From contig JACQWO010000058.1 in NCBI GenBank assembly GCA_016209225.1, forward strand, positions 1 through 64,000: DNA of 64,000 nucleotides, written 5' to 3'. Positions within the stretch are counted from its first letter, which is position 1; each line of letters opens with the position of its first letter. Shown here piece after piece: positions 2,516 through 63,197 of the stretch. The DNA comes from Desulfobacterales bacterium (lineage in GTDB: Bacteria > Desulfobacterota > UBA8473). Below the pieces are notes generated by a model that saw only the letters and a list, made by a program, of their open reading frames with translations, had not been told where the DNA came from and made no database searches. The position numbers and the translations under genes are program-made.

Positions 2516-2781
2516 CGTTCCTCGAAGAGACCTAACAAGTTATTCTATAGTTAGTTCCTTAATAACTCCGCGCCTCAAGGGGTTCCTTCAGGCTCCATGC
2601 ATTAATAAGTTATGTTGTCTATCCAACCCATGATCCCCTGCCCTCTCAGATACCCCTTCATTATAAAATAATATATAATCTCTTGACAGATTTTTTGCAA
2701 CAATATATTTTTGGGTCATCTCCCAAAGAGTTGGTCGACGAAAAGGATTCAAGGGGTCAAGGATTCGAGGATTCGAGCGAG

Positions 2782-3153
2782 ATGCTTAAAAATTACAAAG
2801 AATTTAAGGTTTGGCAAAAGCCCTATCAGCAATGTTTAGAGATTTACAAAATAACTATAAAATTCCCAAAGGATGACAAGTTCGGTTTGACATAACAGAT
2901 CAGGCGGGCTGTTGTGTCCATTCCTTCCAACATTGCAGAAGGTTATGGACGCAAGACAACAGCAGATTATATCAAGTCTTTATATATTGCCTATGGATCA
3001 AACTGTGAACTGGAAACGCAGATAATGCTAGGCGGAGACTTAGGTTACATTGACAGTGATATACTTGAGAGTATCAAGGATGACATTCATGAGGTTGAAA
3101 GGATGCTCAAAGCATTGATAAAATCATTAGAAAACAAACACTTGAATCCTTGA
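2782..3153 (+). pseudogene. Four-helix-bundle (S23/IVP family) protein interrupted by an in-frame TAA
   Basis: KNYKEFKVWQKPYQQCLEIYKITIKFPKDDKFGLT*QIRRAVVSIPSNIAEGYGRKT...; both halves are in the same frame, with the stop at 2893-2895. Confidence 0.85.
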
Positions 3154-3294
3154 CTCCTCGAATCCTGTACCACTTTCTCCTAACTAATTGGGAGAAGAAC
3201 CATATTTTTATGTAGAAATAGGAGAACCCTGTATGCTGGTTATCACTTCCGCATTACAGGCACAATTTGAACAGCGTCAATAAGGAGGGGGACT

Positions 3295-8002: not shown

Positions 8003-8091
8003 GTAACTACTCAGGTTCAAAGTTCCAAGGTTCACGGTTCAAGGTTAGAGCAACCAACCGTGAACTGTGAACCTGACAACCTGAATAGTTC
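8003..8091. repeat. Palindromic intergenic element, GGTTCAC-word type
   Basis: GTAACTACTCAGGTTCAAAGTTCCAAGGTTCACGG...CCGTGAACTGTGAACCTGACAACCTGAATAGTTC. Confidence 0.8.
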
Positions 8092-8146
8092 TGAGATGAT
8101 TATCTAGCCTTTACTGTCCACTCACGACACGGCTACTTATCTCTTT

Positions 8147-12902: not shown

Positions 12903-13015
12903 CCATTAACCTCCTCGGTTGGTCCCCACATTCCTTCTATCTCCCTATTGCTGGATATGTTTTATGTGTTAAATCCTATTAATCAGCCTCTGCAATTCAG
13001 ACACTAGACTTTTCT

Positions 13016-13144
13016 GTAACCGTTCACGGTTCTCAGTTTACAGTTCACGGTAATTACAACAGCAGGCTTAAGCCCGCTGTTTATATAAAGCTTGAAGCAT
13101 TTTTGCCAACTGTTAACTGCAAACCATAAACTGTGAACGGATAC
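13016..13144. repeat. Palindromic intergenic element (pair with 26085-26213, opposite orientation)
   Basis: GTAACCGTTCACGGTTCTCAG...AACAGCAGGCTTAAGCCCGCTGTT...AACTGTGAACGGATAC. Confidence 0.85.
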
Positions 13145-13328
13145 CCTTTATCTTTGTGTAATCTCTGGCCACTTTCTCCCCTTCAGTCTAATGTCTGATG
13201 TCTATGGTCTACTGTCTGAATCACAGAACTAGTCTTACGTCGTCCTACAAATCTGAGGATACAAAATTTATTTAGATAGCACATCGTGTTTTATATTGCA
13301 AGGAAAAATTTTTCTCAACCTTTTTATT

Positions 13329-14516: not shown

Positions 14517-14560
14517 ATGGTTATCCCCTTTTTTGAATTAAGTCCTTCCATACCTGATTA

Positions 14561-14689
14561 GTAACTATTTAGGTAGGCACAAAGGCACAGAGCACCAAAG
14601 GCACAAAGTTAGGAAAAAACAACGAAACGACCCTGCTCCGCTCTGCTTTGTGCCTATGTGCCTTTGCCACTTTGTGCCTGAGTAGTTAC
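14561..14689. repeat. Palindromic intergenic element, GGCACAAA-word type
   Basis: GTAACTATTTAGGTAGGCACAAAGGCACAGAGC...GTGCCTATGTGCCTTTGCCACTTTGTGCCTGAGTAGTTAC. Confidence 0.9.
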
Positions 14690-14701
14690 CCTGATTTTAA
14701 C

Positions 14702-17661: not shown

Positions 17662-17786
17662 AACTCAGGAGCCAGGTTTCCTTTTCATTCTGACTCCCTG
17701 TCTGCCGCCTGCCTGTGCGTGTCAGCACGCATACAGGTGCCGGCACAGGCAGGCTGAATTTTGGTTCCTGGCTCATGAGTAGTTAC
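17662..17786. repeat. Palindromic intergenic element with nested GCCTGCCTGTGC/GCACAGGCAGGC palindrome
   Basis: AACTCAGGAGCCAGG...GCCTGCCTGTGC...GCACAGGCAGGC...CCTGGCTCATGAGTAGTTAC. Confidence 0.8.
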
Positions 17787-20602: not shown

Positions 20603-20905
20603 ATGTTTCATATTGCCGACAAAGCCAAAGATAAGCTGAACCATTTACTAACGGAGGAAGGAAACAAAGGTAAATTATTTAGACTGGATATGAAAGGGAT
20701 GGGGTGATCTGGCCCTAAGTTCGACCTGGTTCTGGATGAACCAAAGGAAAATGACAGTATAGTCCGAGAAGATGGGATTGACTTCTTGCTTTCCCCAGAA
20801 ACTGCCCTTAGGATTAAGATTTTCAAGGATATAAAAATAGACTATTCAGATGGGGTTTATACCGGTGGCTTTAAAGTTAAAGCTGGCTTCCTTTCAGGCT
20901 GTTAA
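20603..20905 (+). CDS. HesB/IscA-like selenoprotein with in-frame UGA at 20705-20707
   Basis: MFHIADKAKDKLNHLLTEEGNKGKLFRLDMKGMG-U-SGPKFDLVLDEPKENDSIVREDGIDFLLSPETALRIKIFKDIKIDYSDGVYTGGFKVKAGFLSGC*; AAGGAG ribosome-binding site; frame continuous across the TGA. Confidence 0.85.
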
Positions 20906-21050: not shown

Positions 21051-21189
21051 TGATAGGCTCGTAAAAAGTCTGAAAACCCCATATTCTGTCATTCCCGTTA
21101 AAACGGGAATCAAGTTTTTTCAAGTAGTTACATGCTCTATGGATTCCGGATTCCGCCGTAATGACGACTTTTACGAAGCCGTCATTTAT
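21051..21189. repeat. Intergenic repeat with MITE-like outer arms and TCATTCCCGTTAAAACGGGAAT inner hairpin
   Basis: GGCTCGTAAAAAGTC...GACTTTTACGAAGCCGTCAT outer inverted repeat. Confidence 0.7.
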
Positions 21190-21492
21190 TGATTCAAGCA
21201 TTTATTATCAATACCCAGTAGAAGTTCCTTGACAAAAAATCAATCTATAAGGTAAAAATAATGTAACTATTCAGGCACAAAGAGACAAAGGCACAGAGGC
21301 ACAAAGAATAAGAAAAAAGCAAAAAACAACACCTGCCTGCCGGTAGGTAGGGAGACAACCGTATCGCTCGACAAAAATTTACCTTCTTTCGTGTTTAAGT
21401 TGAAAGCCTTGGGTTGAGTAGTCCACAATGCTGATGAATCTTGAGTAGGAAATAGTGGATATTCTTATAACCATAGGCCATGCGGGATAACT

Positions 21493-24838: not shown

Positions 24839-26089
24839 ATGTTTATTAAGGGAGAAGAAATGAGTTCAGAAAGTTTGAGTAGCTCAAAGAAACAACTGAG
24901 GACGGCAAGGTTGGTGTGGCCCCTGGCAAAGGACTATTATGCCAAGGCAAGACAGGCTAAGATAGATAAGAAGCTGGTTGTTTGGACCATACTTATGGCA
25001 CCATTCGAGCTATTGCATGCGATGGATGTGGTTCCCATGATGACCGAACATTTCTCGTCTCTTTTGGCAATAAAACAGAAGATTGTGCCTTACCTTGAAT
25101 TAGCCGAGGGTATGGGATACACAAGGAATTCATGCTCTTTTCACAGGGCTGTAATTGGATTCGCTTTATCTGGAGAAGAATTGATGATACCAGAACCGGA
25201 TTTTTTTGTAAGCGCAACCAATGCATGTGATGGGGGTGTCAAAGTCCATATACCTGTAACAGAACGATTTGGGATTCCATATTATATTATAGATTCTCCC
25301 TATAATACCTCCGAAGGTGGGATGTCTGTTATTGAGGAAGAAAAGGTAGAATACTACAGGTACCAACTCCAGGAGTTGATCTCCATCATTGAGGAGTTGA
25401 CACACAAACCCCTTAATGAAGACAGGCTTAAGGAGACCATTGGATTTGCCAAACAGGCCAATGATCTATGGCTTGAGATAAATGAACTGCGAAAATCTGT
25501 GCCCTGCCCCATGAGTGTGGCTGAAGAGGCAACAACCATATATCCGCTGATGCAGTTGTTGGGGACCAGGGAGGCTGTTGGTTTTTATCAAATGTTATTG
25601 AATGAAGTTAAAGAACGGGTGAAGGAAGGAAAGGGGATTGTGGAGAATGAAAAGCACAGACTACTCTGGCTTGGACCTATTATTAACTATGATACAAGTC
25701 TATTGAATTACTTTGAGGAGTTCGGGGCAGTACTGGTTAAGTCAGATATGGATTACATATACCTTGGTGATCTGGACCCGGAAGACCCATTGGATAGCCT
25801 GGCGAGAAAATATGTTTCAAATTTTTTCAATGGTATTATTGAAAATCGGATCCGCATCACCAAAGAGATGGTCAGGGATTACAAGATAGATGGGATGATT
25901 ATCTATTCTCATCGTGGATGCAGGCTATTCTGTGGTGGTCAGAGGTCGGTAATGGACGCAATCTCTGAGGAGTTTGGGGTCCCTTCCCTCCTGATAGGCG
26001 GCGATCTCTCTGACGTAAGGGATTATAACAGGGATCAGGTTAGGAATCAGATAGAAAACTTCATGGACATGCTGGATAGTAAACGTTAA
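24839..26089 (+). CDS. 2-hydroxyacyl-CoA dehydratase / benzoyl-CoA reductase (HgdB-like) family protein, second subunit
   Basis: TILMAPFELLHAMDVVPMMTEHF...GYTRNSCSFHRAVIG...YSHRGCRLFCGGQRSVMDAISEEFGVPSLLIGGDLSD. Confidence 0.85.
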   Translation: MFIKGEEMSSESLSSSKKQLRTARLVWPLAKDYYAKARQAKIDKKLVVWTILMAPFELLHAMDVVPMMTEHFSSLLAIKQKIVPYLELAEGMGYTRNSCSFHRAVIGFALSGEELMIPEPDFFVSATNACDGGVKVHIPVTERFGIPYYIIDSPYNTSEGGMSVIEEEKVEYYRYQLQELISIIEELTHKPLNEDRLKETIGFAKQANDLWLEINELRKSVPCPMSVAEEATTIYPLMQLLGTREAVGFYQMLLNEVKERVKEGKGIVENEKHRLLWLGPIINYDTSLLNYFEEFGAVLVKSDMDYIYLGDLDPEDPLDSLARKYVSNFFNGIIENRIRITKEMVRDYKIDGMIIYSHRGCRLFCGGQRSVMDAISEEFGVPSLLIGGDLSDVRDYNRDQVRNQIENFMDMLDSKR

Positions 26090-26213
26090 CAGTTCACAGT
26101 TGGCAGTTAACGGTTGATAAAAATCAAAAATGCTTCAAGCTTTATATAACAGTGGGCTTAAGCCTGTTGTTGTAATTACCGTGAACCGTGAACTGAGAAC
26201 CGTGAACAGTTAC
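26085..26213. repeat. Palindromic intergenic element (inverted copy of 13016-13144)
   Basis: Reverse complement shares GTAACTGTTCACGGTTCTCAG...GTAATTACAACAACAGGCTTAAGCCCACTGTTATATAAAGCTTGAAGCATTTTTG. Confidence 0.88.
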
Positions 26214-39555: not shown

Positions 39556-40128
39556 CTATTTCCCGCTTTTGCGCATTTGAGATCGAGTACGATAGAGCCT
39601 TTCTGTAAAACCACCTTCTTTTAAAAACTCTTTTTCCAGAACACGAAGTTGTTGATCGAGGAGGTAATTTGCCTGGTGAATGACACAGATCATGGTGTTG
39701 GCTGCAATTTCGGGAGAACTGGTTTCGATATAAGGCTTATAAGTCATATAAGACCTATTCTTTCTGTAACAAAGCCCCCGAACCTCTTTCGCTTTCGAAT
39801 GCTCCTTGCCCCAAAGAGGCAGCTCTTTTTGACGCAGATAGTCCTGAAAATCCAGCAGCAACTCCTCCAGGCTCGCCCGTGCCACGCCGATGAGCTTGAG
39901 TTCGAATTTTTTGGAAGTACCTGAGGCCATGCTCCCTTCAGCAATGTTTTGCTTGCCGCTGCGGGCTGCCTGTACCATCTGGTCATGGGTGCGGGAGCGG
40001 CGGTCAATGAAGCGGTTGCAAAACACTACCGTGGCATCATAAACAATTTCGGCCATCTGATAGGATTGTAGCTCCCGGTAGCCGCCATGGGGTGGGATGA
40101 GTTTGGGAGGTTCTTTTTGGTTAGTCAT
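39556..40128 (-). CDS. Four-helix-bundle protein with suffix domain (S23/IVP-related)
   Basis: GGYRELQSYQMAEIVYDATVVFCNRFIDRRSRTHDQMVQAARSGKQNIAEGSMASGTSKKFELKLIGVARASLEELL...CVIHQANYLLDQQLRVLEKEFLKEGGFTERLYRTRSQMRK. Confidence 0.85.
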   Translation of the reverse strand: MTNQKEPPKLIPPHGGYRELQSYQMAEIVYDATVVFCNRFIDRRSRTHDQMVQAARSGKQNIAEGSMASGTSKKFELKLIGVARASLEELLLDFQDYLRQKELPLWGKEHSKAKEVRGLCYRKNRSYMTYKPYIETSSPEIAANTMICVIHQANYLLDQQLRVLEKEFLKEGGFTERLYRTRSQMRKSGK

Positions 40129-40215: not shown

Positions 40216-40371
40216 GTAACTATTCAGGTAGATAGACTGAAGGCGGTAGGCTTTTAGGAATAAATCATGCGTGGTCACACAAAACTTCGGGGCATTGAGG
40301 GAACTGCTTTATCAATATGTTTGAAAGATACTTCAGCCTTCAGTCTTCAGCCTAAACACCTGAGTAGTTAC
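40216..40371. repeat. Palindromic intergenic element, GGCTGAAGGC-word type
   Basis: GTAACTATTCAGGTAGATAGACTGAAGGCGGTAGGC...TTCAGCCTTCAGTCTTCAGCCTAAACACCTGAGTAGTTAC. Confidence 0.85.
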
Positions 40372-51505: not shown

Positions 51506-51626
51506 GTAACTATTCAGGTAGGCACAGAGCACCAAAGGCACAAAGTAGGAAAAAAACAACGAAACGACCCTGCTCCGCTCTGCTTTGTGCCTATGTGTTT
51601 TTGCCACTTTGTGCCTGAGTAGTTAC
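51506..51626. repeat. Palindromic intergenic element, near-identical to 14561-14689
   Basis: GTAACTATTCAGGTAGGCACAGAGCACCAAAGGCACAAAGTAGGAAAAAAACAACGAAACGACCCTGCTCCGCTCTGC...CTGAGTAGTTAC. Confidence 0.92.
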
Positions 51627-59490: not shown

Positions 59491-59580
59491 CTAACTGCCC
59501 AGGTGGATAGCCTGTAGGCAGTTGGCCTGTAGGCAGTGACTAATAGCCTTCGGCCTACAGCCTAAACAACCTGAGTAGTA
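59491..59580. repeat. Palindromic intergenic element between dsrB and dsrD
   Basis: CTAACTGCCCAGGTGGATAGCCTGTAGGCAGTTGGCCTGTAGGC...GGCCTACAGCCTAAACAACCTGAGTAGTA. Confidence 0.85.
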
Positions 59581-59597
59581 AAGAAAAGAGGTGCTAA

Positions 59598-63095: not shown

Positions 63096-63197
63096 GTAAC
63101 TGCTCAGGTGGATAGGCTGTAGGCAGTTAGCCTGTAGGAGGAAATTATGTGCGACTAACAGCCTTCAGCCTATAGCCTGAACAACCTGAGTAGTAAC
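63096..63197. repeat. Palindromic intergenic element between the OsmC-like and RsbRD_N-like genes
   Basis: GTAACTGCTCAGGTGGATAGGCTGTAGGCAGTTAGCCTGTAGG...CAGCCTATAGCCTGAACAACCTGAGTAGTAAC. Confidence 0.85.

Follow-up and report, generated by a model that had tools for sequence, protein, structure and literature searches.

The window analysed here (a stretch of 64,000 nucleotides, with all features given on the forward strand) contains short intergenic elements in which quasi-tandem words are followed by their reverse complement between near-constant ends. This architecture, described in a first-pass annotation for at least eight segments, is real. The terminal inverted repeat said to be shared by the eight listed was found in six of them (8003, 14561, 40216, 51506, 59491 and 63096), which are complete elements of the IS66 type; the segment at 21263 has a left end only, and that at 17662 is not a member of the family.

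The element at 14561–14689 is read as an IS66-type MITE with an interior of GGCACAAAG words, flanked by a target duplication (CCTGATTA and CCTGATTT, at 14553–14560 and 14690–14697) matching at 7 of 8 positions. The same words fill the element at 51506–51626, flanked by an exact 8-bp duplication, CTTTATAA (8/8), and the truncated copy at 21263–21375, which agrees with the left part of two full copies (L067 and L083), diverges beyond and has no right end. The remaining complete elements have heptad interiors and are likewise assigned to the IS66-type MITEs. At 8003–8092 the heptad is GGTTCAC, of the S23p kind described below; the right end is degenerate and no target duplication is clear. At 40216–40371 the heptad is GGCTGAAG and 8-bp direct repeats are absent; positions 40263–40290 include ATGCGTGGTCACACAAAACTTCGG, which resembles the first codons of the S23p gene (MRDHTKLR) at the locus L045. 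The elements at 59491–59582, with diverged ends, and at 63096–63197 both contain GGCTGTAG heptads and have exact duplications, GAAAAGAG and TAGCTTTT, respectively (8/8 each). The latter also contains a short S23p gene scar at 63140–63159, recognised by comparison with L048. The segment listed as 17662 is a word hairpin (GAGCCAGG, 17664–17779) without IS66 ends and outside the family; its apparent right end is a coincidence, because the orthologous hairpin reads GAGTTTTTACTG in species G039 and GAGTAGTTAC in G000.

Other features of the window lack these ends. An S23p (PF05635) cassette at 2713–3201 has arms of GGATTCAA words, a gene broken by one stop, and a second kind of ends, GGGTCATCTCCCAAAGAGTTGG and CTAACTAATTGGGAGAAGAACC, with an exact 8-bp duplication, ATATTTTT, at 2705–2712 and 3202–3209; G108 has the same ends at the matching site and lacks the gene. 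At 12998–13222, two hairpins without IS66 ends are nested, with ACAGTTC heptads (13017–13140) inside CAGACACT-type arms, which suggests that hairpins land inside other hairpins. A further heptad-word hairpin without IS66 ends lies at 26087–26212. Both hairpins of the nested pair have different words and are multi-copy in the genus, and at L070 (518–660) a GGCACAAAG element was observed to hold a second word hairpin, AGGCTAATAGCCTGTAGCC, in its loop. A palindromic repeat, TCATTCCCGTTAAAACGGGAATC, at 21086–21111 and onward has no relation to the elements studied. Read by eye, an IscA/HesB-like ORF at 20604–20905 has a TGA in frame (context GMG-TGA-SGPKF) that resembles the selenocysteine position of a HesB-like selenoprotein. 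An Rfam scan of the whole window gave no match of any kind.

The ends of the elements are 13 bp long and highly enriched. With at most one mismatch, GTAACTAYTCAGG occurs at 292 sites in the 3.1-Mb genome (145 forward and 147 reverse), against 7 (6 and 1) for the reversed pattern; exact matches number 72 and 77, against 0. The genome-wide enrichment for which the first-pass annotation had proposed a check is thus borne out. Among 297 genomes of the phylum, 52 carry the exact motif, representing 39 of 198 genera. Exact 8-bp direct repeats were found at the junctions of 20 of the 63 complete elements extracted; a 7-bp repeat was found in one, and repeats of 5, 6, 9 or 10 bp in none. A flank match of at least 7/8 was seen in 24 of the 63, against a mean of 0.6 (maximum 3) for shuffled flanks, and the duplication is missing in about 60% of copies. 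Empty sites in close relatives, also proposed as a check, were found: the 14561 element is missing from the orthologous site in three congeners (G075, G108 and G039), and the empty site in G108 carries the target CCTGATTT once. The spacer of the 8003 copy contains another element in each of G137, G108 and G039.

Duplications of 8 bp are known for the published IS66 elements ISPpa5a and ISPpa7 (PMC3281130). In the relative G072, an IS66 transposase gene (NF033517, 5.9e-92) lies between perfect GTAACTACTCAGG and CCTGAGTAGTTAC ends in a 1689-bp element (L125), and L124, an IS66 element of 3333 bp whose second gene is DruA-like, is bounded by GTAACTATTCAGG ends. The genome under study has an IS66 of its own (contig C7) with the related ends GTAACTTCTCACG; because these differ at two positions, the exact-end partner is found only in a relative. 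The DruA-like protein (PF14236) is encoded at 897–1769 of L124, within the GTAACTATTCAGG ends. Judged by their sequence, the elements are IS66-type MITEs. The 8-bp duplications and the cognate IS66 with identical ends make it very likely that the boundaries are recognised by an ordinary DDE transposase of the IS66 family, supplied in trans, which would also move the elements. A RAYT/TnpA-REP transposase, named in the first-pass annotation as one candidate to search for, is not supported. The genome has 13 Y1_Tnp matches, and the elements are hairpins, as REP/BIME-type palindromes moved by a Y1 transposase would be; however, GTAACT ends were found at 0 of the 10 Y1 loci examined, 8-bp target duplications are not expected from Y1 transposition, and an IS66 with identical ends exists. 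This origin is therefore given hardly any weight.

What do these ends enclose? A first clue came from the long copies, one of which (L018) holds ATGAAGATTAAACGGTTTGAAGATATTGAGGC, the start of a four-helix-bundle gene. A search of the genome for PF05635 revealed an intact 121-aa TIGR02436/PF05635 gene situated exactly between two of these ends in a 472-bp element (L045, C37:22794-23265), and a shortened PF05635 gene in another such element (L046). With tblastn, S23p remnants were detected in L018, L023, L028 and L054 (E 1e-7 to 2e-11), and L075 holds part of a PF13366 gene (1.5e-6); matches with E above about 1e-6 were dropped, because the control with reversed sequences returned 7 hits at E up to 0.05. 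In G072, the same ends enclose an equivalent cassette, which has GGTTCAC words (L199). The genes are of two families: S23p/IVP (PF05635), a four-helix bundle known as the protein that 23S rRNA intervening sequences encode, and GxxExxY (PF13366, TIGR04256, PDDEXK_3). The genes at L041 and L045 belong to the former (PF05635/TIGR02436), for which 2GSC (Xcc0516) was matched at 6.2e-33.

The fills therefore fall into discrete kinds that differ in their words and, where copies are longer, in the gene remnant they carry, and we read them as decayed remnants of different one-gene cassettes; the GGCACAAAG fills, with words of 8–9 nt, are tentatively placed with the GxxExxY kind. The earlier description of constant ends with differing interiors in a non-autonomous element holds; the fills are not unrelated filler, since longer copies carry PF05635 or PF13366 pieces. 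Its suggestion that the interior evolves by slippage does not hold, the fill coming from several separate gene cassettes with their own words. A single non-autonomous element with an interior drifting by slippage and template switching would account for the varying number of words, seen from copy to copy and, at one site, from species to species. However, it would leave unexplained that the kinds of fill are tied to different genes and word lengths, that the same word-and-gene cassettes are found without IS66-type ends, and that intact gene-bearing cassettes already exist for the GGCTGAAG (L045) and GGTTCAC (L199) fills, and it is regarded as very improbable. Going by the copies that lack them, the cassette layout exists independently of IS66-type ends. 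The first-pass annotation had proposed an undescribed system, unless the copies traced to one ordinary IS/MITE family; by that measure the element ends are ordinary, and the undescribed part is the cassette.

The arms of the cassettes were quantified by aligning the upstream flank of each gene with the reverse complement of its downstream flank, with windows of the same loci as controls. For 74 PF05635 loci of the phylum, the median arm score was 18.0, against 7.5 in 3289 control windows, and 63 of the 74 genes exceeded the control 99th percentile. For 79 named PF05635 loci from across phyla (Bacteroidota, Proteobacteria, Nitrospirota, Acidobacteria, Verrucomicrobia, Firmicutes, Planctomycetota, an archaeon and others), the median was 17.5 against 8.0, with 57 of 79 above the 99th percentile. 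PF13366 genes had arms at 19 of 29 loci. At a common cut-off of 14, arms were scored for 77% and 73% of S23p genes and 55% of PF13366 genes, against 6% of neighbouring ORFs; the window ORFs gave 1 of 51 and the Y1 transposases 0 of 10. Arms lie on either side of the genes, their median distance from the protein domain being about 35 nt. This bracketing, compared with only 6% among neighbouring ORFs, argues against the idea that the host uses word hairpins as regulatory or terminator elements, which S23p and GxxExxY genes adjoin by chance, as does a gene scar found inside a solo form (the L205 site, below). That many hairpins stand alone, and that paired heptamer/octamer repeats in Geobacter are annotated as regulator sites (PMC2700814), speaks for the idea, which on balance is considered improbable.

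The word length is specific to the gene family: 7 nt for S23p and 9–10 nt for GxxExxY. In two independent sets, S23p arms showed a self-identity of 0.65 at lag 7 and 0.64–0.67 at lag 14, whereas the remaining lags in the range 4–15 gave 0.20–0.33; PF13366 arms gave 0.40 and 0.38 at lags 9–10, indicative of a period of 9–10 nt. The 7-nt period is not a coding pattern, because seven is not a multiple of three. S23p words themselves vary widely and, when phase-aligned, are C-poor with a loose G-T-R-A core. Their sequence tracks protein relatedness only where the proteins share more than about 55% identity: the correlation of word with protein sequence is weak in the phylum set (r 0.15, 2/500 permutations) and missing in the cross-phylum set, and deep co-inheritance of words with the protein is accordingly not claimed. 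Longer PF05635-like proteins (about 190–220 aa), encoded at 39859–40068 of the window and at L051, have short repeats of words (TATAAGTC, TCTGACAAG) within their own genes.

The agreement of word length with protein family is the reason for reading the arms as recognition arrays. The encoded protein may bind its own arms, the word array being a putative recognition array; this is the least certain part of the proposal, held tentatively and at slightly under even odds, and the lack of a deep word–protein correlation counts against strict sequence recognition. The main rival for the origin of the arms is a self-primed or template-switching polymerase, for example in the reverse transcription of a fold-back transcript, which would use one arm as the template for the other and extend in fixed steps of 7 nt, with S23p as an RNA/RT cofactor like its relative Avd. 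Period and arm complementarity do persist despite widely differing words, S23p weakly matches the Avd model and its relation to Avd has been published (PMC10053308), and the genome has two reverse transcriptase matches. However, no reverse transcriptase was seen linked to the cassettes, and GxxExxY cassettes are armed without any Avd-like protein, so that fold-back copying is thought unlikely, less remote all the same than the other alternatives weighed here.

Comparison between species shows the cassettes changing at fixed sites. The L041 cassette is missing from the matching site in G039, G108 and G137, with one junction shared, and lies at the same site in reverse orientation in G075. The short form contains TCGTGAGTCGTACTTACGAG (G039, G137), which is similar to the cassette words, and the outgroup G164 is without it. 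Either the cassette entered a word-like target or, since the short form already contains word-like sequence, that form represents an old remnant rather than a virgin site. In G075, the L205 site holds the gene within the loop of an AGTCAGA hairpin; four species keep gene-less hairpins with differing numbers of words, and the solo hairpin of G000 retains ATGAAAAGGG, the gene's first codons. One shared site is occupied by an S23p cassette in G055 and by a GxxExxY cassette in G017. We infer that the cassettes are themselves mobile; no integration protein for the cassette itself was identified.

Overall, the data are best read as two nested layers, an IS66-type MITE outside and decayed one-gene cassettes inside, to which we assign a probability of roughly 0.8. 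At the sequence level, this reading draws on the ends, duplications, empty sites and cognate IS66 for the outer layer, and on the arms, word period, remnants and scars, and cassette replacement and inversion for the inner one. An IS66 transposase would recognise the GTAACTAYTCAGG ends in trans and insert the element with an 8-bp duplication. The cassette consists of a single small ORF (S23p/IVP or GxxExxY) between two arms of degenerate tandem words; because the arms are inverted, the whole could form one long hairpin whose loop contains the gene. Such cassettes occur alone in intergenic DNA, inside at least two kinds of transposon ends and, very probably, as the intervening sequences of 23S rRNA, and internal deletion would leave a solo word hairpin. 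Whether this extends to a class of minimal mobile cassettes found kingdom-wide (a single small gene, drawn from two or more unrelated families, in a hairpin whose word arrays are family-specific, with a spreading mechanism of its own) is evenly balanced in our estimation; the best-known or decayed members of such a class would be the intervening sequences of rRNA and the orphan heptameric repeats seen in Xanthomonas, Geobacter and possibly cyanobacteria.

How do these elements compare with known systems? With IS66-family MITEs they share short ends beginning GTAA, an 8-bp duplication, the absence of a transposase inside and a cognate IS66 with identical ends; unlike those, they carry several kinds of decayed foreign gene cassettes and not a deleted transposase gene. 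Integron cassettes differ in that the present cassettes have arms on both sides of the ORF. Diversity-generating retroelements are related through Avd, a distant homologue of S23p (PMC10053308), but no linked reverse transcriptase was noticed around the cassettes, the genome having two such matches. The Xanthomonas GGGAATC repeats are described, in the passages of one paper that were searched, as 7-nt tandem words forming 70–75 inverted pairs per genome, with no general mobile-element association and no mention of S23p genes (PMC4692102); an S23p gene of X. vasicola (L273) was found here to be flanked by GGGAATC words. The paired repeats of Geobacter metallireducens (PMC2700814) look similar to the present arms.

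The closest parallel is the 23S rRNA intervening sequence of Coxiella burnetii, which has tandem GACAGAT heptamers upstream of an S23p ORF and complementary ends that form a long stem (PMC4990558); in open-access PMC text, this was the only case found of an S23p gene with flanking repeats. The S23p/IVP ORF and the complementary ends with tandem heptamers are also found here. However, the present cassettes lie outside rRNA, in intergenic DNA or transposon ends, their words differ, and the layout is shared by another gene family, unrelated to S23p. Because the window has no Rfam match and its copies lie between protein-coding ORFs, and not in a 23S rRNA gene, these copies are IVS-like and not IVSs. 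As far as could be found, the hairpin-armed layout was known before from this one special case, the S23p-coding rRNA intervening sequence, and has not been described as a general class around both orphan families across many bacterial phyla. S23p/IVP and GxxExxY are common protein families without a known function, and rRNA intervening sequences have had no explained origin; the signature they share, inverted arms in which word length is fixed, gives the two families a testable job, links several unexplained repeat families and accounts for many of the intergenic hairpins of this genome.
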